NCBI GenBank assembly: GCA_964036045.1
Contig: OZ038387.1
Location: forward strand, 15,502,920 to 15,566,919
Length of the DNA stretch: 64,000 nucleotides
Direction: 5' to 3'
Origin: Eutreptiella sp. 'Long Island Sound 2002'
Taxonomy: Eukaryota; Euglenozoa; Euglenophyceae; Eutreptiales; Eutreptiaceae
In this document: positions 18,501-64,000 of the stretch, piece after piece
How the letters are laid out: each line of letters begins with the position of its first letter
How positions within the stretch are numbered: position 1 is the stretch's first letter
Program-made: the position numbers and the translations under genes
Notes under the pieces: generated by a model
The model's input: only the letters and a program-made list of their open reading frames with translations
Told to the model about the DNA's origin: nothing
The model's database searches: none

Positions 18501-19523
18501 GTGTGAACATATGCACCGCGCCATCCATGTGAACGGGTTTCAACCCCGTGTGGACATGTCCGAACACATCATCAAAGCAACCTCACCGTCTCATTTATTG
18601 TACGCGTGCACGTGTGTTTAGCATGCCCTCGCACATATTGCGCCTTGGCAAAAAACGGAATCCCTAAATGTTTCATTCCTGGGAAATGGTGCACGGATGT
18701 CTGTGTGAACAATATGTTCGACCGGTACACTCACGGGCAGTTAGACCGGTCCAGATCGGTCTTCCGGTCTGCTAAATTGGACTATGTGGGTAACTCTAAA
18801 CCTTCGTTGAACCATCAAAAATCACCAAAAGCAAAAGATTCGCCACGTGCAAAAACCCGTGGCCCAACTTCCCACACAAATGTCACATTTGACACACATG
18901 TTTAGACAGGATCATACCGTTGCGCCTGTAGCCAAAGGAATATGCATACAATAATGTGTACATAATGTACGATGTATGTTGCAAGTATAGTCCAAGTATA
19001 GTGGACAACCTCTCCTTGCTCCACCCGGTCCATGGAGGTAGTGGATCACCGGACCGTGAACCACCCCCCAACCCCCCCTTGCCCAAGAAGATCAAGGAAC
19101 TAGTGGACAATTCACATATATTATGTTGAAACATACGCCTGTTCAATGCATGGTAACAATGGGCTGGGGAAATGCCAAAAACGTGCCATCCATACCAATC
19201 TAAGTCAACGGCTTGTCCTTTTCTCGCATGCATCCTACTCCTCACCCTCTTTATCTTTGTGGTGAATGTGCTTGTATGGTGAGCATAACCTGGCATACCA
19301 AGAATACCCCCCCAAAACAGCCATTTTGGCACATGTACCTAGTCGTTCCGTGTGCCCATGGGATATAAAAAAATGAGTTTAGCACCCTAAAAATAGGGGG
19401 GGGGGGTCAAAAAACCAGAAAGCCAATTCCATACACCCACACCTGTGTGTGGCAATCTACACTTTTTGAGGTATTTGTCAGTATACTCGAAGTATTGGAG
19501 AAGTATTCTTGCCGTATACTTCG

Positions 19524-19565
19524 GAGTATACGGCCGTATACTCAGAAGTATACGGCCGTATACTT
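19524..19565. repeat. Palindrome array, left end of the element
   Basis: Two full copies of GTATACGGCCGTATAC at 19526-19541 and 19548-19563, the first extended to the 20-base palindrome GAGTATACGGCCGTATACTC, plus half-sites on both sides (near 19513 and 19569). It lies about 220 bp inside the left terminal inverted repeat and downstream of the gene's stop codon. Confidence 0.9.
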
Positions 19566-19826
19566 GGAGTATACGGGGACTTTCTGCCTCCCACCCATGC
19601 CACCATTCTCATCACCTACCCCCCCCCCCCCCCTTGCATTTACTCATGACCCTGCAACCCCCAAACACATTGTACACACAAAAGAGCACCATATGAGCAA
19701 AGCAGAAGACCACAAGAAGCAACCTTGTTTGATGTCCCATCCGAAATGTCAAATGTGATCCACTTCCCCATGTTATATATACCTAATATACACACTTACG
19801 CATATTGCACATCACATGATATATAC

Positions 19827-21641
19827 CTACATGTGCTTTGGTGCACGATGCTTCTTCCGCATGTGTTGCATGCCAAACTTGATCCCCTCTCTACCCAAAC
19901 CCTTTTCCCCAAACCACAACCGGATGCCCCAATCAAGGGCATCCAGGTGCAGAGCATGCCTTAGTCCCCATCGGATGACATAAGGCTTGCTCAGCTTCCA
20001 CCCTTGAAAACAATGGCGGATGTCCATTTTAAAACTTTTGTTCCTCCATTCCGTGGGAATGGAGGAAAACTTAATAAAATTCCCCCACCTTTGGAGGTGT
20101 GCCCCACTGTGGCACACCACCCAATGCACCCAAAACGCCAGGTCGGAGGGCGCACTGGCAACATCCCCCCGACCCACAGGAATGGGGTCCATGTACTCCC
20201 GACCGGAGACCACTTGCCCTGCGGCAGCCTTTGGCGCCACCAACTCCACCTCGGGCTTGGCCACCTCGTAATCGGTGATGCTCCGCAGTGGCCAGGGATC
20301 ATACTGGACCTGAATGGGAAGAAAGGGTGGAATTCTAACAAAGAACTAGGCAAAATAGATCGAAATTGGCAACAAATACTATGAGTATACGGCCGTATAC
20401 CTCCGAGTATACGGCCGTATACCTCGGAGTATACGGCCGTATACTCAAAATGGGTGGGCAGGTATACGGCCGTATACTCGCGGTATACGGCCGTATACTG
20501 GGAGTATACGGCCGTATACCGTGGGTATACGGCCGTATACACAAGGTATACGGCCGTATCTCAAGACCATGGCACTGGGTGGGTGAGAGGTATGCATGCT
20601 ACACCTGCAAACGACATGTTCCTGGTTCAAACCCCACTGCCCTCAAACATGCAAAAACATGTGTAGGCCACTGAAGAATCCTGGGAAGAAGTTGAAGAGG
20701 TTGATGATCAATTCAATTCAACTCAACCTGAAGAACTGCAACCATATAGGGAGGCGCTGAAGACAGGCCAAACAAAAAAACCCACCAGTGACCCTACCTT
20801 TTGAGATATTATTATTTGAGATAATAAACGGGACTTAATTAAATGAATAACAACAACACAGTTCAACCCATGCCCGGATCCCACAAATACCTGATTGCAG
20901 ATGCACCACAGCTCTTGCTTCTCCTCTTCCTCCTCCTCCACGTCCTCATCTTCTTCTCCGGCCTTCTCCTTGCCCTTCCTTGACTTTGCCTTGGGCTTCG
21001 GCTTCGACTTCTTCTTTCTCGAAACCGTCTTGAATGGCCACCACTTCACCCAACCATAGCTCTCCGCCAGTGCAACATCCATGAGGTGGTGCTTGTGCCC
21101 AAGTGCAAACCAATGCAAAACCCCGCCAATTGTGGGATCGGTGGAAGCCAAAGCAACACCACCAATCAAACCCCGCGAAACCACCAATGAACCGGGGGGA
21201 CAAGCAAGGAAAGTGCCATCCGAGCCCACAGAAGGCAAGGGGTTAGCATGCATTTGCCGCAATGGGCACTCCTCATATGAAGGGTGACCCTCAACCCCAA
21301 CTCGAAGGGGGCTAGGGGACAAATGTTCATGAACTGCAAAAAAAGTAGCCCCATCAACGGGCATCCGAATCATGGAGCTGCAACACAATAGCTTGCAGAT
21401 TAGGGTTGTTGTCAAACAACGACAACAAAGGGTCAGTGAGGCTGTGGGGTTGGGCAACGCCGGGGTGCGTTAGCTTCACCAGGGCCACAGGGGTGTCCAA
21501 GGTGGACCAAGCACAATTCTCAAGAGAAGTCCAAGACACGGTGCGTGTGCTGTCGGGGCTGTAAACACCTCTGTGCACTGTGCGGAGAGCTACGGCATCG
21601 GCCCACTTCTTCAACAAGGCATGAGTGCCGGCATCAGTCAT
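19827..21641 (-). CDS. Two-exon gene inside the TIR element, product unknown, one frameshift
   Basis: Start ATG at 21641 sits in a strong GCCACCATGA context. Exon 1 runs to 20891 and ends WCICNQ at a GTATTT donor; exon 2 begins at 20309 after CCCATTCAG with VQYDPW and stops at 19827. Exon 1 carries one extra base in a three-G run (21359-21361 on the plus strand). Ignoring it gives exactly 250 codons and a phase-0 join, so the intact product would be about 410 residues. Visible: an acidic/polar N-terminal domain, a WFALGHKHHLMDVALAESYGW segment, a long Lys-rich run (RKKKSKPKPKAKSRKGKEK) next to a Glu/Asp run, a lone CIC, and a Trp/His-rich C-terminal domain (FWVHWVVCHSGAHLQRW, RRLW-type basic end). 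No catalytic motif is recognised. The basic tract suggests nuclear or DNA-binding activity. Confidence 0.55.
20309..20891 (-). other. Intron of the element gene, carrying the main palindrome array
   Basis: The intron is 581 bp (20310-20890), with donor CAG|GTATTT and acceptor CCCATTCAG|GTC, both phase 0. Between 20385 and 20560 it holds seven perfect and one truncated copy of GTATACGGCCGTATAC, spaced by about 21-22 bp, that is about two helical turns. Nothing else coding is evident. Confidence 0.65.
20385..20560. repeat. Palindrome array, intronic, eight copies
   Basis: Copies start at 20385, 20407, 20429, 20462, 20483, 20504, 20525 and 20546. The last is truncated (ends GTATC). Spacers are 5-6 bases of unrelated sequence except one of 17. 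Regular spacing of a perfect dyad is what arrays of binding sites for a dimeric protein look like; cruciform formation is another possibility. Confidence 0.9.
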
Positions 21642-21870
21642 GGTGGCAGAAAAAGAGGGCCTGGGAGAGCAAGAAGCAACATAATATGGATTGGAATGGA
21701 CACATATGGAGACATACATTGCAATCATGAGTGAAGTATGAGCCTAGATTGGTTTCAAGTGGTGTGCAATTGTTGGGCAAAGGCAAAGCATGCAACAAGA
21801 TGGGCACAAAAGGCACAACAATGGAATTTTTCAACTTGAAACAACCACCTGGTGCAAACAAATACCCCCA

Positions 21871-21964
21871 GTATACGGCCGTATACTCTAAGTATACGGC
21901 CGTATACTCCAGAGTATACGGCCGTATACTGAGGTATTGGAGCCTTGAGTATACGGCCGTATAC
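21871..21964. repeat. Palindrome array upstream of the element gene
   Basis: Four copies of GTATACGGCCGTATAC at 21871, 21892, 21914 and 21949. The array lies 230-325 bp upstream of the gene's start codon and about 175 bp inside the right terminal inverted repeat, so it could act in transcription control or as a subterminal transposase site. Confidence 0.9.
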
Positions 21965-22879
21965 CCCAAGAGCCCAAAATGGGGTATTTTCAAACACAAC
22001 ATTGATCATCACAATTGGCAAACTAGAGGTATTCCCCAACCCACCTATGCATGCATTGTGCATTATACATTCGTACCCACCTGTACATGCCACATACCCC
22101 TTTCTCCCAAAACCCCCTTTTTTACCCGTATACTCCCAGGTATTCCTGGTATGCCAGGTTATGCTCACCATATGTGTTTGGTTTTGTGGTTGAGGAAGAG
22201 CCATGCCATGGGAGCGGAATTGCGTGTTGACGTGAAAGGGTAGTCGACTCACCGGTGTCGCGGAAGGCGCATACTTGTGAGTTTTTGAAGTGTGAGACCG
22301 TCGTCCCGAAGAAATGGCACGATGCTTCCGGGGTTTTCGAACAAATCTTTGCCTGAGAGAAGCAACGCAAGTGGACCCCGTTCATTCAGTAAATTGGAAA
22401 ACTCGACAACTTCACATGAATCAAACGAGGAGAAGTTGTGAGCTGCAAATGCAAATCAAAAGGCCGAATTCCCTTGACGAAGACTCACCCTATCATTGTT
22501 GAAGCACGTGTGCATGTTGTCCGAACTTCTGTACGAAACACGGCTTTGTTTCGGCAACGGACACACCTATTTTTGCCTTATCCCCATTCATCTTGGATCT
22601 TACCCCCTTGCCAAGTTTTCGGGTTTCGTCCATGATGATGGACTAAGAAGAAGCAGAGGAACGGAACGCTCACATGCACTAGACCACGGCACGTGTTGGT
22701 CATTCGATGCAACGCAATGCTCAAACCATTCGTTCCCAAAAAAAGCCTTTCTGCGCACTCGCTGGTGGAGAATGTATTGCAATCAACCCAACCCGCGCCA
22801 ATCAAATAGCGGCTTTGCAACTCGCTATCAACTCTTAGCTACCCTCCTGTAGCAAGGTTGCTGATGGCATTCCAAGCTA

Positions 22880-27048: not shown

Positions 27049-28556
27049 ATGTTGTTCTCCATGCTGTTGTGTATGGCAATTTGGCTCAACCCGGTGGGAG
27101 CGACCAACGATTTATTCGTGTTCGTATCGTCACGCGACGGCACTATCCAATTACCAAGCATAAGGCGTCGGTGGGGCAAAAGCGAAAATGTGGGATCAGT
27201 AGTGTTGCTATGTGGAGAGGAGGGGTTTATCAACGAGTTGCTCGATGAAGTCGTACACATTTCATCGAGTCCGACTTCCCTCAAAATACACATTGCGTTA
27301 CGTGGAGATTGTAACAGCCAGGTCCCCGAGATGCCACTTGCTCCATCCACGGTCTGCACGGTTGATAATTGCCATGAAATGCCACTCAATCGTGCTCCTT
27401 TGGATGGAAACATGAGCGACGACACGACCAATGGCGCACCAAACAACTTGGCCACACAACCCTATGGTCCACCTAAAGCACGAAATATTGCAGTCACCCC
27501 CGTACCATTTGCGTTGTCGCCTCGGGTCTCAAATGCAAGATTGAACAACGACATGCACGCGGCATCTTCGAAGGGGATGGCGGCGGCCAAGGTTGGGTCC
27601 ATGTATTGGCATGGTAACGAAACACTCAGGCTTCATCACTTGCATGCGGCAACGACTTCGTCCTGGCCGCGAGACGATATTCATGTTGCAAGCGATGGAA
27701 AGCGACGCAAGGGCTTTACCCCGGCCGAATTTCAGCTTTGGCCTTTCCGGAAAGCTTGCCTCGGAAAGGTAACCCTTGACGCAATTTCGGAGTGGGACCG
27801 CGCAGTGGAGCAACTTTGCCAAAGTGGAACTTTGCACATCGTGCCAGGCATATATTGGGTAGACTTCGCCATAGCTATGGAAGACCGTACTCTCACCGTT
27901 GAATGTGAACAAGGCGTGTTCATCCACTTGCCATACGCGATGGCGTTACAAAATGTCGCACTGCGAGTTGCTCGTTGCGTGCTCATCGGGCAAAGGCGGG
28001 TAATTGAAGGCCGCAACAGTTGCGTACAAGCTTTCGGTGCCACATTTGTAGGAGGGGGCGTTGTGCTGACCTACCACAAGGGCACCACGGATAGAATGAT
28101 CTGCCAATCGGCCCCTTTCGTCGCCAACTTGTTTCTTGGCACACGATTTCACCGCATCCAACACTCGCATAGTGGGGGCGCCATCTCGGTACACTACGGT
28201 CTCGGGCCACGAATGGTCAATGTGAATGTTTTCCGAAATGTACTATTTACCGAGACCCATGCGGGTCGGGGTGGGGGGGCAATCTCCGTGGTGTACCGAT
28301 CGGACACGACAGATGCAAAGAATGTCTTCGAAAATGTGTCATTCGTCAACACGAGCTCTGGGTTGGCCGGCGGCGCCGTCTCCATTTGGTATGGACATGA
28401 CGCCTCGGATTGCAAGAGCATTTTCCGATCCGTCACGTTCCGCAACACGACGTCTGGGTGGAGTGGGGGAGCGGTGTCCATACGCTACGGCGGGCACGCG
28501 TATCGGGACGACAACGTGTTTCAAGATTCGCATTTCATTCAAACAACGGCGGGAAG
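27049..28556 (+). CDS. Exon 1: signal peptide and first four GGA repeats
   Basis: ATG at 27049 gives a typical signal peptide followed by TNDLFVF. Residues 375-503 carry four repeats spaced 33, 32 and 32 residues: SGGAISVHYG, GGGAISVVYR, AGGAVSIWYG and SGGAVSIRYG. Each is preceded by a VF-x-[NSD]-x-x-F-x-x-T block. This is the pattern of chlamydial Pmp-type beta-helix rungs. The donor is GGAAG|GTGAGT, phase 2. Confidence 0.85.
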
Positions 28557-31500
28557 GTGAGTTTTGTCCCTCCGTAGTATTTGGGAGTGGGAGTATTTCG
28601 TTGGGCAATACTTGTGCGTGCTAGTTAACCTTCTGTGCTCCGTGCCGTAACCATCGGAGCGGGTGTGCCCCGTATTCGCACCATGAATACCCATTTGGGT
28701 GATCAAATTCGATTCGAACACTAGAGACGTGTTTCTGAGAGTATCGTTCAACGATTGGGAGAAATTTAGGCTAGCCATATGTCCGCGCGCGTACGTTTAT
28801 GTGTGCACTTGTTGGAGCAATTGTGTATGCGCATATGGGAGTAATTGTGTTTGTGCTTTCTTCTTCTTCTTGCGCGATGGGGGGGGGGGGTGAAGTGCCA
28901 TCAATTTGGACGGCCCATGCGACGAGCAAGGGGTTCCATTCCATTCATTGGCTTTGTGCTATGCGTGCCGGTTTCAGCAAACACGTTCAAGCTTGCACGT
29001 GCCCTCCACATTCACATCCACATTCACCCCTGCGCCTGTTCACAACCGACATCGTGTTCACGAACGTACGAATGTACGTGAACATACTACATTTTCCCAT
29101 TTTCCACGCCATTGAAACCGGCTAGCGCACCACACCCTAGGGTTGGTGCCCCGATGCCGCCGTTTGTAGGCGTCTTATATTTGCCACTCATTGTTGTCAC
29201 CCTCTCCTGTCCGTAGGAACGGTGGCGCTGTTGCCCTCGTGTACGCGACCAAAAGCCGTGGCAGTGCAATTGGCTTCCACGGCGTCCTCCTCAGCGACGT
29301 GACGTCCTCGGCCTGTGGCGGGGGCTTGTTTCTTTACCTTCCAATGGACAAGTTCCTGCAGACACATTGCCTTAGTCCTTGGGAAGACGAGCGCAAAGGG
29401 TATTTCTGTGCCTTGCACCTCTAATCTGTCAGTGCGTTTGTGTTGCGTTGTTCCCCTGCATTATCCTGCATGGTGTCGCGTTGCGTCGTGTTGTGCTGTG
29501 TTGTGTCCTGTTGTGTTGTGTTGTGTCGTCGCATGCGTTCTGTGGGAGGGCGGAGCCTGTGTGTACCATGGGATGCTCAAGGACCCTACCACGACTGTAC
29601 ACCCTCACCACGCCTCTGCCGCGCCTCTCCACCCCGTTACCGCACCTACTGTTCAATCTGACGAGGCAATGCATATCTAGCATCGGTGTTTGCTCATCTG
29701 TTCGGCGCTGCATGCATGCTTCACGTGTGCATGCGCAGATTGCCGTCCAAAGGTTGCCGCATCCCATTTCTTCTTCAGGGTTTACGCCCGGTTCGAATAT
29801 GAGGCCAGTGTGTGGATTGTGGCGTCCCAGTTCATCAATGTAGGCTGCCGCTCGCGGAGCTGCAGCGGAGGCGCCGTCTTCGCCATCGGGTGGCCACCAT
29901 CATCACCTGACCACTATCAGCCCCAGCCACCTCACCCAGCACCCATGCAACCATTTGCAACACGCAGGGGGTGGGGTTAACGGCTTGTGCCGTGTGCCGT
30001 GCCGTTCAGGGCCACCAGGGGGGAGGGTCGTGCCGCGCCGTGCCATTGAGTTCATACCGTCGTGTTCGGCTGATTGAAGTAGGAAGGTATGTCGCTATGT
30101 TGGCCAGCAATGTATTGTTATTGCCTTTGTACAATGACAGCAAGAATTCACGTAACCGGCTACGCTTTCATTTTTTTTCAAGATTAATTTCCTCACTTGC
30201 ATGCAATTCTTCACCAGCTGCGCTCCCTTTTTTTTTTTTTAAAAAAAAACGATCTTTGTCATTGTTGTTTTTTTTTTCTTGCATGCCACACAACGTCACT
30301 GGCTACTATTTTGTTTTCAAGATGAGCTTGCTCATTTGTAAGTACGAAGCCAAGTGCCAATCCTGTATTTTCAGCAGCTCCAGGTCTTTTGGGGCGTGCA
30401 ACTTTAACAATTTTGAACTCAGGACTCGTTGTGTCAATTTCAAGTGATGTTATTTGAACAATTCATATTACGGCGATTTGCTCACGTGTCTTGCTCACGT
30501 GCTTTGCATCGTTTTTGGTGCAGGGGCGGGGGGTCGAGGCATTGTGCCACGGACAGCGCTGCGCAATGCCCACGTTTCCCAATCCAGGCAAAGTTTAAAG
30601 AGCGCCCACATCTGTGAGGTGGGACTGAGTCGCTTCCAGGGATGTGGGGGGCGAGCCGGAGCCACCCACCTCTGTCGGTCAGTTGAAGAACGGCATGCGA
30701 TGTTTGACACAGCAGAGCCCCGCCCCATTGGATGTGGGGCCCTCTCACATCTGGCGTCTGGGTCAGCAGGACATGCACACATGACGTTGCTACCCGATCA
30801 TGCCCGAATGTTTGCACGGCCGCAGCATCGCACAGGCATTGCACGTCCCGCAGGGGGAATCTCACCATCATGGACACCACGCTCGCCCACACCCGCCCTG
30901 CCCCCAGTGCGGGGCTGTACGGAGGCGTGCTGTACGTCAGCCGCAGCGCTCGGCTCCACCTGGAGAACACCGGGGTCTCGCAGGGCCCAGCCCTCCCCGC
31001 AAAGCGCGGACAACTGTTGTACTCGGACAGCATCGGCGGCGTGACGCTTGGACCCGCGACGGTGCTGGAGGCGGGCCCCCCAGTCCGGGGTGAGACTATT
31101 ATGGAAGTGGTGCATGGTGTGTCACATTTGCACCGCTGGGCTGCAGCTGCATCGCTGGAAACCAGGTGGGCTGGGTGGGCATGAAGGCGGGGATGGCCCG
31201 TAGGGGTGTGTGGAAGATGGTGGTCGGCAGGGCAGGATGGGGTTGCCGAAGCTCACACTACGCCCCATGCCACCCCAGCCCCACATCTCTTGACCACATT
31301 CAGGACATGGCGGAAGCAAATGCATGACTGAATGGTCATAAACTGATCACCAAATGTATGCCTCAAAATGGTCACCAGGTCGTGGTGATCATTTGAGCAT
31401 CTCCCGGAACCATCCCCTGCCATACCGGGACCCCACTCCCAAGGCTTGAGGCCAGCCTCTTGCAATGCGTGGCCCACAGCCGTTTGCTGAAGGTGTTGCC

Positions 31501-59073: not shown

Positions 59074-59528
59074 ATGGCTACTGACACTGGCAAATACACT
59101 TCCAGCCCACCCACTCGCAGCACATTTTGGCACCCATCCTCTTCGACAAGCCAGCCTTTTACACCACCTGAAACCCCTCCTGTTACATCATGTCAATTTC
59201 GTCAGACTCACTCAATATCAAATCCATCAACCTTAGCTCTCTTCGCAACCCTTTTGTCGCTTTTGGAATGGGTTTGGGTGATCATTTTGGTGACAATACG
59301 GGTACTCTAGCACTCATGGGGACCCTCGAAAGCCTCAAAATCTTAGCCCACGCAAACTGCACCCCCCTTTTGGAAGAGAAGGACCTAAAAAATGACCGCC
59401 TGAAAAACTATTTTTTTTGGACATTTGCAACACACATGACCCAGATACCACCGAAAAAATACAATTTTACCAAATTTGCTGCTTTTTTCCACTTTTTGTT
59501 TTTTAAAATAAACTATTATTTTGTCTGA
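59074..59528 (+). pseudogene. ORF broken by one frameshift, unknown
   Basis: ATG at 59074 (GCCATGGCT context) opens MATDTGKYTSSPPTRSTFWH and a Ser/Thr/Pro-rich stretch. Near 59187-59192 the protein-like sequence moves to another frame that reads SISSDSLNIKSINLSSLRNP, FVAFGMGLGDHFGDNTGTL and LLEEKDLKNDRLKNYFFW to a TGA. A one-base difference would join them. This may be a decayed retroelement N-terminal gene or an assembly error in a real gene. Confidence 0.35.
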
Positions 59529-59682
59529 TTTGAAGGGTGTGTTTTACCAATCTTGTCGTTTTTGTATTTCAAAACCCAACTGGTGTGTGCCTGTTCGGGA
59601 GCTCATTTTCAAAAATGACATTCTGCAGGTCTCCAGTTGCACCTATGTTTGTCATGCGAAATAAATTGCTTTTTTATGTCCC

Positions 59683-59708
59683 TGAGTGCGCGAGGCCTCG
59701 CGCACTCA
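59683..59708. repeat. Palindrome GTGCGCGAGGCCTCGCGCAC, 3' region, distal copy
   Basis: Here the dyad extends to 26 bases (TGA before, TCA after the 20-base core at 59686-59705). It lies about 200 bp downstream of the stop codon of the four-exon gene. Confidence 0.95.
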
Positions 59709-59843
59709 AGGTCATGGAAACAATTGTGTAAGAAGGGAACAAAAACAAGACAGGAAGCACACAACATACAAACACTGAAATAAAAGCTCGGCAAAAATGT
59801 ACAAGCCCTTAAGGGCATATAATTGCATTCGCGTCGAAGGCGA

Positions 59844-59863
59844 GTGCGCGAGGCCTCGCGCAC
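59844..59863. repeat. Palindrome GTGCGCGAGGCCTCGCGCAC, 3' region, proximal copy
   Basis: Perfect 20-base dyad 45 bp downstream of the stop codon of the four-exon gene, in its presumed 3' UTR. Confidence 0.95.
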
Positions 59864-59907
59864 ACATGACTGCAAAAACCAGGAGAAACACTTGGGTTAA
59901 TGGTGGC

Positions 59908-60846
59908 TTACTTCTTCTTCGGTCCAGCAACCTTAGACAACCTTGAACCCAGGCTTCTTGCCACCGCACTTGTCCCACTTGGAGAGGCAACGGTACCACG
60001 AGACGGCTGGGCACCAGAACGCGAGGGCGGCTTGAACTCTGCACTAGCGGTGGCTGCAGTCTTCGCTTTCTTCTTCGGCTGTTCCTTACCAGATGCGGGG
60101 CTTGCATCGAAGTGAGCGGCGGCTGCCCGCTTGCGCTTCTGCTGGGTCTCCAGTACTTGCTCCGGATCCTCTTCTTCCTCCTCCTCGTCGGTATCATCGT
60201 CGTCTGATTCCGTGGGCTTGTCCGATTCCTTCTCGTTTCCTTTTGCCTGCTTCTTGCTACTCGAGGGGGTTCCCTTTCCGGCTGCAGTACCCTGAGTTGG
60301 TATAACTTTGGCAGTCTTCTTCACCTTGGCTTGCATTGGCAAAGTAGGTGTAGGCGCAACAGGCTCAGTGTCGTCAGCGGGGGCCTCAGTCACGACATCT
60401 TCCTGGACGGCCTCTGCAGCATGCACCTGCTGGTGCCCTTCATGCCCTCGGTTGCTGTCCAAAACCCACAGTGGAATGCCACGCTGAAGCCACTCTTCTT
60501 GAGTATCCCAAGGTGCAGCTGTTGCTCCCTGCTCCGTCTGATCAGCCTCCAACATGTACTGCATGATGATTGCATGCTGCAGAGCACCTCCAACGGCATT
60601 CCCAAGGTCCTTTTGCTTGATCGTTGACACAGCCAAAAACGCCACTTTAGTACGGAGGTCGGACATCGCAATTTTTGCGGCCATGGCAGGCGTGTCGTCC
60701 ACAACAACCACTGCATCAGAATACCCACTGCCCAAAAGATATTTGTCCAGGTACCACAGCACGTGAATCAGAGGCATGAAACCACCAAGGTTCTTGTTCT
60801 GCATCTCTTTGAAATGTCCAGCGGAATACGACACATAGTTCGGCAA
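59908..60846 (-). CDS. Exon 4 of the palindrome-intron gene
   Basis: Begins after CACATTTACAG with LPNYVSYSAGHFKEMQNKNL. A globular part (AVVVVDDTPAMAAKIAMSDL, AVGGALQHAIIMQYMLEADQ) is followed by about 170 residues of Lys/Ser/Pro/Glu low complexity. The TAA stop is at 59908-59910. Confidence 0.8.
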   Translation of the reverse strand: MPNYVSYSAGHFKEMQNKNLGGFMPLIHVLWYLDKYLLGSGYSDAVVVVDDTPAMAAKIAMSDLRTKVAFLAVSTIKQKDLGNAVGGALQHAIIMQYMLEADQTEQGATAAPWDTQEEWLQRGIPLWVLDSNRGHEGHQQVHAAEAVQEDVVTEAPADDTEPVAPTPTLPMQAKVKKTAKVIPTQGTAAGKGTPSSSKKQAKGNEKESDKPTESDDDDTDEEEEEEDPEQVLETQQKRKRAAAAHFDASPASGKEQPKKKAKTAATASAEFKPPSRSGAQPSRGTVASPSGTSAVARSLGSRLSKVAGPKKK

Positions 60847-62857
60847 CTGTAAATGTGATGTATAAAGACGAATAACGGAGGCAGCAGTGCGCGAGGCCTC
60901 GCGCACACAACGGCATCGTAACAGGCGAAAGAAGCAGATATACCTGCTTATCCCAGCGACTCGTTGTTCCGATCCACATACAGTGCTCGTCGAACTGATA
61001 CGTACTGCTGGTCACGGGACCCGATAACCAAGAGTATACCGGCAACCGAACATGGTAGAATGGCACTGTGGTTGGATCCTTGTCCTTCTCCATACGCCAG
61101 AGCCTCTGGATGTCGCGGCCAATACGGTGCACAACATCAGCCTCGCCATAGAAAATGAGGTCTTTCCCCAGCATCATCACATCGAACAGCCACTTCGGAA
61201 CAAATCCTGCAGTGTCATATTCAACGAAAAGGTCAGCGTTGATGACCCACAATGGGTAATGCAGATCCCGGAAACGGGCTGGCGGTGTCTCTTCAATATC
61301 CTCAATACGGCACGCCGTCAAAGAGAATTTGCTCCCTTGCTCGTCCTGCTTGGAGACATTGATCACATCGCCAGTACTCAGCTGTGTCTGTGACGGTGCC
61401 GATGATGGTGCCTCAGTCTTCTTTTGCAGTTGTTTCCGCACGGCCAGCGTCTGTGGTAATGGAGGTGCGCCCTTGTCCCCAGTCCGCCACAGAGGTGCAT
61501 TGAGCAACGTCTTCCATTTTGGCCACGGCGACCGATACCTCGTACTTGTATCCGGCCAGTAACCCCAATTTCCCAGCCCAATTTTCAGTTGCGGCGTGCC
61601 CAGTGCTGCGACTTCTGCTCGGATCTTCGCATCGGCAGCTGTACGGATGTGAAAACGGTGGTTGAGTGCGCGAGCCCTCGCGCACTGAAGCTGCGACACT
61701 GACGCATACCTGCCGTCTGGTTGACATACTGCTTATTGTCCGGATGGTCAAGATGGAAAGTAACCCATTGATCCGTAATCTGCGCGTCAATGTAGTTCTG
61801 GGTGGTGCGTAAGGTCGAGTCCTTCAGGTTCATGTGCGCACAGACTTTCCGCAATAAGCTCGGTAGATGCAGCCCCTCCAGCTTCTTGAAGGCATTCCTT
61901 GTAACTTCATCTTTCCTGCTCTTATTCTCGAGGTTCTTCATGCCAGTAACCGCCTCACGACCGCAGTAATACGCCAGGGAGAAGATGTCCCTCCAGTTCT
62001 TGAATGTCGAGTCCTGCGAGGGAAAACAATGCCATGGAGTGCGCGAGGCCTCGCGCATTATAACCGTGCGATACACGAATACATACTGTATGTCCTGCTT
62101 CCTCCAAAGCCTCGGGTGCAAGAAACGCAGAGTTGACGGCGGCCTGGACAACAGCAGTCTTGAACCGCTCGAAATCTTGTGGTTCTTTTTCCCGCTTCTG
62201 GTCCTCAATGTACAACAACATGTTGTCCAGCGCCTCGGACAGCGGAATCCACGTCACAGACTGGCTGCCAGCTTGTTGCAATCCTGCAACCTTGGCCCGG
62301 ATCCTCCAAGGTGTTTCGTACTTCAGAATGTCAACGTAGCAAAACTCCTGCCAGTCCTCCAATTCTTTGCCTTCTGCGAGACGCAGTTCCTGAATCTTTC
62401 TGCATGTTTCTGTGCCATGCTGACCATTCAGAACGTAAAGTGAGCCATCTGCAAAGCAAACCATGTACCGAAGCAAAGAGAAGAAACGTCTTCGATCGAA
62501 CGCGAAGCGAGTCATACCACTATCCTCCCACGCCGTTACGCGCAACGGTCCAGCTGGTGGCAGTGCTTGGTATCCCGTCACTTTCCTGGCAACATCGTCA
62601 TAGTTGATGGATCGGATCTGTCCGCGCTCCTTGGTCTTGTCAACTCTCAAATCAGCAATCTTTACCTTCACGGCTTTACCATTCTCCTGCCGCAACCACT
62701 GTTGCACGTCGACTGTGAGCTTCATCTCCGGTATTGGCTTCTTCTCACCCTTCTTCTTGCGTCCTTTCTTCGGCGTGTCCCCTTGGTCGGTCCCTGGTGA
62801 CGACTCCATGGCCTCTGTGTCTGGTGCTGGACGTTCTGGCGACCCTGGTTCACTCAT
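59908..62857 (-). CDS. Four-exon gene for a large nuclear-type protein of unknown function
   Basis: Exons 62857-62087, 62013-61710, 61638-60944 and 60846-59908 join in phase (0, 1, 0) to about 902 residues. Introns are only 73, 71 and 97 bp, start GTATGT, GTATGC and GTATAT, and each carries the palindrome. The product has a Lys-rich N-terminal stretch (KKGRKKKGEKK), a domain with SLLRYMVCFADGSLYVLNGQHG (residue 144-148 NGQHG, loosely like the GQH of ParB-type proteins) followed by LEDWQEFCYVDILKY, a helical central part, a Trp/aromatic region (PLWVINADLFVEYD), and a low-complexity tail with SDDDDTDEEEEEEDPEQ, KRKRAAAAH and PKKKAK. Nuclear location is inferred from the basic clusters. The gene upstream (63979-63107) has the same orientation. 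No known family is assigned. Confidence 0.75.
60847..60943 (-). other. Intron 3 (97 bp) with palindrome at 60887-60906
   Basis: GTATAT...TTTACAG. The perfect 20-base dyad lies near the middle. No other repeat is shared with the other introns apart from the splice sites. Confidence 0.8.
60944..61638 (-). CDS. Exon 3 of the palindrome-intron gene
   Basis: Begins after CATCCGTACAG and completes an Ala codon (ADAKIRAEVAALGTPQLKIG). It has a Pro/Ser/Gln-rich linker, then FRDLHYPLWVINADLFVEYD, HRIGRDIQRLWRMEKDKDP and YQFDEHCMWIG, ending RWDKQ in phase 0 before GTATAT. Confidence 0.8.
61639..61709 (-). other. Intron 2 (71 bp) with imperfect palindrome at 61666-61685
   Basis: GTATGC...CGTACAG. The dyad has one substitution at its centre (GAGCCCTC on the plus strand instead of GAGGCCTC), leaving the outer arms intact. 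Confidence 0.8.
61710..62013 (-). CDS. Exon 2 of the palindrome-intron gene
   Basis: Begins after TTTTCCCTCGCAG with DSTFKNWRDIFSLAYYCGRE, continues with a charged helix (KNLENKSRKDEVTRNAFKKL) and ends NKQYVNQTA in phase 1 before GTATGC. Confidence 0.8.
62014..62086 (-). other. Intron 1 (73 bp) with palindrome at 62039-62058
   Basis: GTATGT...CCTCGCAG. The dyad is exact except for the last base on the plus strand (CAT instead of CAC). Confidence 0.8.
62087..62857 (-). CDS. Exon 1 of the palindrome-intron gene
   Basis: ATG at 62857 (ATCATGAGT) opens MSEPGSPERP. 257 codons end EEAGHT|GTATGT in phase 0. An in-frame GTA TCT TTT GGC ATC precedes the ATG after a CCCTTTTTAG, so an extra upstream splice cannot be excluded. 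It contains the NGQHG motif. Confidence 0.8.
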
Positions 62858-62978
62858 GATGCCAAAAGATACCTAAAAAGGGCAAATGGCACGACTTGAA
62901 ACACGGTCATTTGAACTCTGAAATCAGTCGAAACGGTGTTTTGCAGGTCGTTTTCGCACATCTGTTCCACAACTATCT

Positions 62979-63055
62979 CTGTTGTGACTTAATCTAATGC
63001 ACTTAGCGAACTACTCAGTGCGCGAGGCCTCGCGCACTCACATCGCATTACATAC
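62979..63055 (-). other. Probable 5' UTR intron (77 bp) with palindrome at 63018-63037
   Basis: AACAG|GTATGT at 63055 and CACAACAG at 62979 bound a segment of the same size, donor type and palindrome content as the three coding introns. It lies 122 bp upstream of the start codon. A second palindrome (63075-63094) sits just outside, toward the upstream gene's stop codon. Confidence 0.5.
63018..63037. repeat. Palindrome GTGCGCGAGGCCTCGCGCAC, upstream copy A
   Basis: Perfect 20-base dyad in the probable 5' UTR intron of the four-exon gene, 57 bp from the next copy. Confidence 0.95.
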
Positions 63056-63074
63056 CTGTTTTTCGCAACGTTTA

Positions 63075-63094
63075 GTGCGCGAGGCCTCGCGCAC
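63075..63094. repeat. Palindrome GTGCGCGAGGCCTCGCGCAC, upstream copy B
   Basis: Perfect 20-base dyad beginning 13 bp after the stop codon of the upstream gene (63107-63109). Confidence 0.95.
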
Positions 63095-63106
63095 TGCGGG
63101 CGTCTG

Positions 63107-63979
63107 TTACCGCAAGCGTTGCCGCACGTTGCGTGTTGCTGCTTCCTGTCTGTCGGCATCCATATCTGTTCTCCGCCCCACAACAGCATCCAGTTTCCGT
63201 TTCAGTTGGTTGGTGGGATTTGTTTTCTGGTCAATGAGGGCATCCAGTACGCTGTGACCAAGTAGCCGGTAGTGGTCGTAACCAAGGGGTTGTGTAGGTG
63301 AGGGTGGAAATCTCGGTAACCTCCGCGGCCACGAAGTTGCAACGGTGCTGACTCTGGCCGACTCCCTTTCCACATACGCCATGCAAATTCGGTCTGTCGC
63401 CAAAAATCTTGTCAGTCGTTGTCGCATGCTGTGTACCAGGTTCTTGGGAACGTTTTGCAACCCCACGCGTTTGCCACCAGGACCAACCTTTAGTAACAAG
63501 TAATGGTTTTCGACCTCCTCAACAGTAACAGAACCCGTGTTTCTCGCCTTGTCCCGCACCAACTTGCTCAACATCCCTTCTCCAAACTCCTTTGAGTGTG
63601 CCTGACCGGGCAGGTCCTGGTGCCACTTGCTGTTGTACAGCAATGTGCACATGATCGTGCGTTCGTACTTCAGTACGGTGTCACACGGTCCTCGACGCAG
63701 CCTCCTCAACAGACACAAACTCAACTGCAACACCTCCTCGGCTCGTGACCCTGTACCGTTGTTTTCCCCTGACCAGTTGCATTCCCGTACCACGTGGCCC
63801 AAGTACAACAACAACGGGCACCATTCCGACAACAAATGCAAGACTGCGTTTGCCACTGCTGCCCTGTTGGCATGCGCAGTGTCACGACCACTGATCGCGG
63901 TTGCAGCTTGTGCCTTGCGCCGATACGGGCGTAGTATTCGGGGGGTGGCAAGCATCAGCGCAGCAATAGTTTTTTCCAT
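63107..63979 (-). CDS. Single-exon gene of unknown function, 290 residues
   Basis: ATG at 63979 opens MEKTIAALMLATPRILRPYR; TAA at 63107 follows RNVRQRLR. The protein is basic and helical, with LLSEWCPLLLYLGHVVRECN, LSLCLLRRLRRGPCDTVLKY, KLVRDKARNTGSVTVEEVEN and a Lys/Arg-rich C-terminus (NQLKRKLDAVVGRRTDMDAD). It lies head to tail with the four-exon gene, 250 bp apart, with two palindromes between. No intron or palindrome lies inside it. I recognise no family. Because the window ends 21 bp upstream of the ATG, an earlier exon cannot be excluded. Confidence 0.65.
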   Translation of the reverse strand: MEKTIAALMLATPRILRPYRRKAQAATAISGRDTAHANRAAVANAVLHLLSEWCPLLLYLGHVVRECNWSGENNGTGSRAEEVLQLSLCLLRRLRRGPCDTVLKYERTIMCTLLYNSKWHQDLPGQAHSKEFGEGMLSKLVRDKARNTGSVTVEEVENHYLLLKVGPGGKRVGLQNVPKNLVHSMRQRLTRFLATDRICMAYVERESARVSTVATSWPRRLPRFPPSPTQPLGYDHYRLLGHSVLDALIDQKTNPTNQLKRKLDAVVGRRTDMDADRQEAATRNVRQRLR

Positions 63980-64000
63980 AACTATCAGTTTGGGGTATGA

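Follow-up and report, generated by a model that had tools for sequence, protein, structure and literature searches.

Family-specific palindromes in a two-gene DNA transposon of Eutreptiella, candidate recognition sites for an element-encoded protein

The 64,000-nucleotide stretch of DNA analysed here (the window) comes from the euglenophyte Eutreptiella sp. 'Long Island Sound 2002' (contig OZ038387.1, positions 15,502,920 to 15,566,919, forward strand). It contains seven copies of a 20-bp palindrome, three of them in predicted introns, and all seven lie within a single copy of a 6,861-bp DNA transposon, which we term F1 and which carries two genes, P1 and P2. Comparison with related elements in the same genome suggests that the palindromes are probably family-specific DNA recognition sites of the transposon, bound by a protein of the element itself, and that the likeliest purpose of this binding would be to counter silencing. 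The palindrome divides by family as if it were a tag for each element's own DNA-binding protein, and such a tag would explain a pattern easily mistaken for the gain of introns by introners.

The palindromes of the window and the transposon F1

The seven palindromes stand where a first-pass annotation of this DNA had placed them (Table 1), and no copy appeared in 100 shuffles. Of the check which that annotation had proposed, the genome-wide search for the 20-mer with up to two mismatches was run. In 2.28 Gb of sequence in 2205 contigs it returned 13,901 sites of the F1/F2 type against 20 for a reversed-sequence control, a count that takes in the palindrome variant of a second family, F2, which differs from the F1 palindrome by two mismatches. 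Together, the shuffles and the comparison with the reversed control rule out a chance origin.

The spacing of the palindromes at the window locus was found again at many places in the genome, and the bounds of F1 were set by aligning this locus against further loci of contig C1. The first 50 exact matches to the 20-mer all lie in the first 22 Mb of C1, where they form 15 clusters; in each of the 14 clusters retrieved, at least one CTTAGCCCACGCAAACTGCACCC end adjoins the palindromes. The element runs from window position 59342 to the equivalent of 66202 and is cut by the window end, past which lie three further palindromes, giving ten in the full copy. None of these ten is in an exon and seven are outside introns. 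The ends of F1 are perfect 23-bp inverted repeats beginning CTTAG, and the flanking 5-bp target-site duplication is exact in five copies (AAAAT in the window, TCAAC, TAAGT, AAGGA and AAGTT) and matches at four of five bases in a sixth. Terminal inverted repeats and a target-site duplication of fixed length are features of class II elements, and the same layout is seen in F2 and in two further families, F3 and F5, described below. Judged by these sequence features, F1 is a DNA transposon of the cut-and-paste type (class II) with genes P1 and P2. A search of Rfam gave no match within the window. A viral origin was also considered and rejected, there being no P2 relative and no exact 20-mer among viral contigs, a collection from which the window genome's own records may be left out.

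Table 1. Positions in the window of the F1 copy, its genes, introns and palindromes
Feature	Positions	Strand	Remarks
Target-site duplication (5 bp), left copy	59337..59341	none	AAAAT; right copy past the window end
Transposon F1, part within the window	59342..64000	none	element ends at equivalent 66202
Left terminal inverted repeat	59342..59364	+	CTTAGCCCACGCAAACTGCACCC
Palindrome 1	59686..59705	none	3' of P1 gene; element position 345
Palindrome 2	59844..59863	none	3' of P1 gene; element position 503
Gene P1	59908..62857	-	5 exons, 879 aa spliced; unknown family, core D..GQxR...GQHxxE
P1 intron 4	60847..60943	-	97 bp
Palindrome in intron 4	60887..60906	none	
P1 intron 3	61639..61709	-	71 bp
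Palindrome in intron 3	61666..61685	none	1 mismatch
P1 intron 2	62014..62086	-	73 bp
Palindrome in intron 2	62039..62058	none	1 mismatch
P1 intron 1	62449..62517	-	69 bp, without palindrome; missed in the first-pass annotation
Palindrome between P2 and P1	63018..63037	none	
Palindrome between P2 and P1	63075..63094	none	starts 57 nt past the start of the 63018 copy
Gene P2, C-terminal part	63107..64000	-	whole protein 665 aa, beginning at equivalent 65104; putative DDE transposase

The introns of P1 and their splicing are predictions from the sequence. Three introns with one palindrome each and exons joining in frame had been recognised in the first-pass annotation, as had the non-coding location of the other four copies in the window, and on these points we agree with it. 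Its statement that every short intron has the palindrome does not hold, however, because P1 has a fourth intron, numbered 1 in Table 1, which lacks one; this segment had been taken as exon because its frame stays open. The palindrome is thus present in three of the four introns (2, 3 and 4). The evidence for intron 1 is of several kinds. It has the signals GTATGA..TTTGCAG; among the eight F1 copies that cover it, its variation is even over the codon positions (10.2, 9.3 and 10.8%), and in the exon parts on either side position 2 is under constraint (3.7 and 4.4%); in one of the eight it is 82 bp long, which is no multiple of three; and an intron of F2 matches it in place and phase. On this evidence, the segment is a predicted intron that is free of codon constraint.

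Searches of NCBIfam and the Protein Data Bank (PDB) with P1 and P2 returned no credible family; for the P1 core the PDB search ranked ribosomal protein L35 first (E 0.0018), a match that looks spurious. The GQ.R and GQH..E elements of this core are conserved in all five P1 proteins aligned. In P2, residues D161, D248, D300 and E377 are invariant in eight chosen diverse proteins, an alignment made without P0052, P0054 and the F2-like sequences P0041-45 and P0047-49; when the comparison is broadened to 13 proteins, D248 and D300 remain invariant and D161 and E377 are each found in at least 90%. This pattern of residues suggests that P2 is a DDE transposase. A relative 94% identical to P1 exon 1 (P0063) is present on a 5,581-base contig from JGI, and distant P2 relatives (P0051-P0054, 28-33% identity) are likewise from short contigs of other sources; because of this provenance, the F1 host or its relatives may occur in environmental samples.

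Related families and a shortened derivative

F2 was found by a genome search with a P2 relative of 45% identity, which gave at least 85 matches (85 of 7,244 candidates were scored). Two copies, L030 and L031, have the ends CTTAGGCGGCTCAAGTTGCATGGTCAAAA and the duplications TAAAT and ATTGT, respectively; for a third, L032, the right end was not found. L030 carries TTGCGCGAGGCCTCGCGCAA ten times (with up to three mismatches), a palindrome in which the 16-bp core is that of F1 and the outer bases are changed symmetrically. The P1 proteins of the two families are 38% identical (308/819), and their genes have four introns at identical alignment columns and in the same phases (1, 0, 1, 0). The introns that bear palindromes are 2, 3 and 4 in F1 and 1, 2 and 4 in F2. 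Intron 3 of F2 (L030:5610-5683) has no palindrome but holds GTGCGCCGCAC, identical to the F1 palindrome once the nine bases at its centre are removed and perhaps a decayed copy of it.

A derivative of 1.2 kb is present at three loci. It has F1 ends at L022 (one mismatch in one end) and L023, with 5-bp duplications AAGGA and CAGAA, and at L024 only the right end is seen. No match to P1 or P2 was found in it, and its longest stop-to-stop reading frame measures 147 aa (L023) or 86 aa (L024). The distances of its three palindromes from the ends are 345, 501 and 199 nt in L023 and 346, 502 and 199 nt in L022, compared with 345, 503 and 197 nt in F1. In F2, 196 nt precede the outermost site. The left arm of the derivative can be aligned with F1 (z 5.8) and the right arm barely (z 2.1), whereas the stretch separating palindromes one and two (z -0.3) and the two inner stretches compared (z -0.1 and 0.9) resemble F1 no better than shuffled sequence does.

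Four more families, F3 to F6, were picked by transposase similarity alone, their motifs not having been looked at first; with the distant metagenomic relative P0051 as query, the genome gave at least 64 matches at 29-39% identity, and of eight types singled out among these the analysis covered three, F3, F4 and F5, in full and a further one, F6, in part. Each of the four has its own repeated inverted motif. The F3 element (L033) has TGTCTGGAACCAGACA at 20 sites, seven of which are in P1 introns; five of the seven form a tandem array in front of the acceptor of intron 2 (the acceptor was placed, the donor not located), where three tandem repeats of 120 bp (L033:5570-5929) present the motif about every 60 bp. 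F4 (L034) has TCAGCGCAAATGCGCTGA at six sites, none in an intron, a count made on assumed element bounds, as the ends of F4, like those of F6, were not established. F5 (L035) has TATCGAAATTTCGATA at 19 sites, with five in P1 introns, and exact F5 motifs number 207 genome-wide against none in the control. In the 4 kb of F6 that are covered (L036), GCTGG-NN-CCAGC occurs at six places: once in intron 1, across which the exons join in frame, twice where the reading frames predict introns 3 and 4, and otherwise between the genes and after P1. F3 and F5 have ends beginning CTTAG and duplications ATTGG and CAAAA (one copy each). Relatives of P1 were identified by tblastn with best E values of 1.5e-13 in F3, 4.5e-5 in F4 and 2.6e-6 in F5; the F3 copy of P1 contains an in-frame stop.

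Families F1 to F5 together have 65 motif sites (10, 10, 20, 6 and 19, with up to three mismatches allowed, or four for F4), of which 18 are in P1 introns and none is inside a modelled exon, the exon models of F3, F4 and F5 being partial. The final base of the P2 stop codon is also the first base of one F2 site, which the test for that family treated as coding. The bias towards non-coding DNA has a binomial p between 1e-9 (F5) and 1e-3 (F4) in the individual families.

The sites are also conserved. Among 11 copies and fragments of F1, divergence is 3.3% in the palindromes, a value biased low because the copies were located through exact palindromes, whereas the remaining intron sequence diverges by 10.0%, the 20-bp flanks by 9.5% and third codon positions by about 10%, intron 1 still being counted as coding in this comparison. 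In F2, for which copies were chosen by protein, a small comparison of L032 with L030 gave one change in 104 palindrome positions against 89 in 1071 for other non-coding DNA (Fisher p 0.002).

A proposed role for the palindromes and the alternatives to it

We propose family-specific binding sites because the motif follows the family, its position follows the non-coding space, and the derivative keeps the sites. The binder would be one of the element's own proteins, most likely P1. It would recognise the palindromes in double-stranded DNA, presumably as a symmetric dimer given their inverted-repeat form, and each full copy would offer it about ten sites distributed over its non-coding DNA. Sites would lie in P1 introns because only there can a gene accommodate a 20-bp site without harm to its protein. 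As the families keep their own motifs, the binder would act mainly on its own family and on non-autonomous derivatives of it; F1 and F2, which share the 16-bp core, might cross-react. By analogy with VANC and the VANDAL transposons, binding would most likely serve to keep copies of the family open against host silencing and reachable for the transposase, and the sites nearest the ends may in addition help to assemble the transposition complex. The suggestion in the first-pass annotation that the palindrome might be needed for chromatin thus survives in altered form, as transposon protein-binding sites that differ by family; the parts of it that invoked splicing or termination do not.

Recognition of its own family by a transposon, and the escape from silencing that goes with it, are to our knowledge understood in detail for few systems. 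VANDAL elements are Mutator-like, with a Mutator-like transposase and target duplications of 8-10 bp; F1, with its 5-bp duplication and a P2 without Pfam match, is not one of them. Two papers describe, for VANDAL21 and VANDAL6 of Arabidopsis and their VANC proteins, a family-specific short motif across introns, intergenic and terminal non-coding regions, different motifs in related VANDAL families, amplification of motif units in tandem, and the demonstration of VANC binding and loss of methylation (PMC5735166, PMC10398659). The elements studied here resemble VANDAL, as portrayed there, in being multi-gene DNA transposons with a motif in non-coding DNA, introns included, that differs by family, and the repeats of about 60 and of 120 bp in F3 are reminiscent of the tandem growth. 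They differ in that VANC motifs are short and directional, in arrays of one orientation, whereas ours are inverted repeats and mostly dispersed, and in the CTTAG ends, the 5-bp duplication and the P1 and P2 proteins without Pfam match. Kyakuja-Dileera-Zisupton (KDZ) elements are eukaryotic DNA transposons that can carry genes besides the transposase, as F1 does, but make target duplications of 7-8 bp (PMC12730594). The 5-bp duplication and the want of a Pfam match for P2 set F1 apart from that group also.

Several observations weigh against the proposal. P1 has no match in Pfam, and P2 none at E values up to 10 except one at chance level; the structure models are uninformative (pLDDT 35 for P1 exon 1 and 48 for P2), and DNA binding by P1 is for these reasons a prediction. 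The differences in motif between families fit P2 as the binder as well as they fit P1. F3 to F6 are represented by one copy each. The absence of P1-intron sites from F4 means that such sites are not indispensable. As to conservation, the F1 figure has the bias already mentioned, and the younger F2 pair, L031 and L030, shows no difference between palindromes (3/200) and other non-coding DNA (29/1704).

The alternative that fares best is that the palindromes serve the transposition complex alone, as subterminal sites for the transposase, the internal copies being leftovers or having a bridging role. Subterminal transposase-binding sites are found in En/Spm-like elements, and the derivative that lacks P1 and P2 preserves the end-proximal positions; for the outermost site, F1 and F2 agree to within one nucleotide. 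Nevertheless, there are internal sites between P2 and P1 in all six families and intron sites in F1, F2, F3, F5 and F6, and because these are present with different motifs they appear to be maintained; we therefore regard this explanation as rather unlikely.

That the palindromes act in RNA, as hairpins of the pre-mRNA that aid splicing, termination or stability, is in our judgement very improbable. They are perfect inverted repeats, and the symmetric change of outer bases between F1 and F2 would fit pairing as well as it fits a dimeric protein. The changes within F1 palindromes, however, are mostly single and unmatched and break the pairing, which disfavours a hairpin; the palindrome is present in some introns and absent from their orthologues; and sites are found also in subterminal DNA and in the derivative, which has neither P1 nor P2. 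A role in splicing or termination, as raised in the first-pass annotation, finds no support, given the same derivative and the existence of palindrome-free introns. We give similarly little credence to the idea that the palindromes are parS-like tags for segregation or replication, with P1 as a ParB-like spreading protein. Each element does have multiple palindromic sites, and the GQH..E core of P1 resembles, by eye, ParB-type and DGQHR domains, but a relationship to ParB could not be supported: neither Pfam nor the PDB gave a match to it, and chromosomal insertions have no need of a partition system.

The view that a palindrome-bearing element created the introns by insertion into exons, as in introners, accounts for short similar introns with one internal sequence in common but is scarcely credible, because F1 and F2 have their introns at identical positions and in identical phases despite 38% identity in P1, some introns lack the motif, and the introns of F5 and F6 at corresponding places in P1 have different motifs. 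The comparison of orthologous introns that the first-pass annotation had proposed, carried out here between F1 and F2, found the same introns with a different set of palindromes, and it is on the occurrence of such introns with and without palindrome that both this reading and that of a splicing element are rejected. The introns do share sequence, as introners do (PMC9860276), but here the intron places are conserved and seven of the ten F1 sites are outside introns. Introners are recent and variably present; four positions and phases common to two families exclude the P1 introns from that class.

Returning to recognition by an element protein, we put forward more tentatively a wider interpretation of the sequence comparisons, that elements with CTTAG ends, 5-bp duplications and the genes P1 and P2 may constitute a new superfamily, unrecognised by the libraries searched, which evolved a VANC-like self-recognition independently and in which P1 co-evolves with the palindromic address of each family. 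A single genome would, with the same reservation, then hold several pairs of binding protein and site. Among the papers listed in a literature search, titles and the openings of abstracts gave nothing that describes F1 or its families. The principle is known from VANDAL; what appears to be new is the type of element, the palindromic nature of the motifs and how many differently tagged families a single genome holds. Six families with a common two-gene layout and differing inverted-repeat sites offer ready-made pairs for studying how binder and site change together.

Other features of the window

Elsewhere in the window, positions 19525-21965 contain short arrays of another perfect palindrome, AGTATACGGCCGTATACT, with 14 sites at up to four mismatches. 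The arrays lie between inverted ends near 19275 and 22172 (TATGGTGAGCATAACCTGGCATACCA), which do not begin CTTAG, and the region may, from this arrangement, be a mobile element of another kind, likewise furnished with a palindrome. An open reading frame of 503 aa at 27049-28560 has repeated GGAISV-like units and perhaps encodes a beta-helix surface protein. TTAGGG telomere repeats were seen at three of the five contig ends read.

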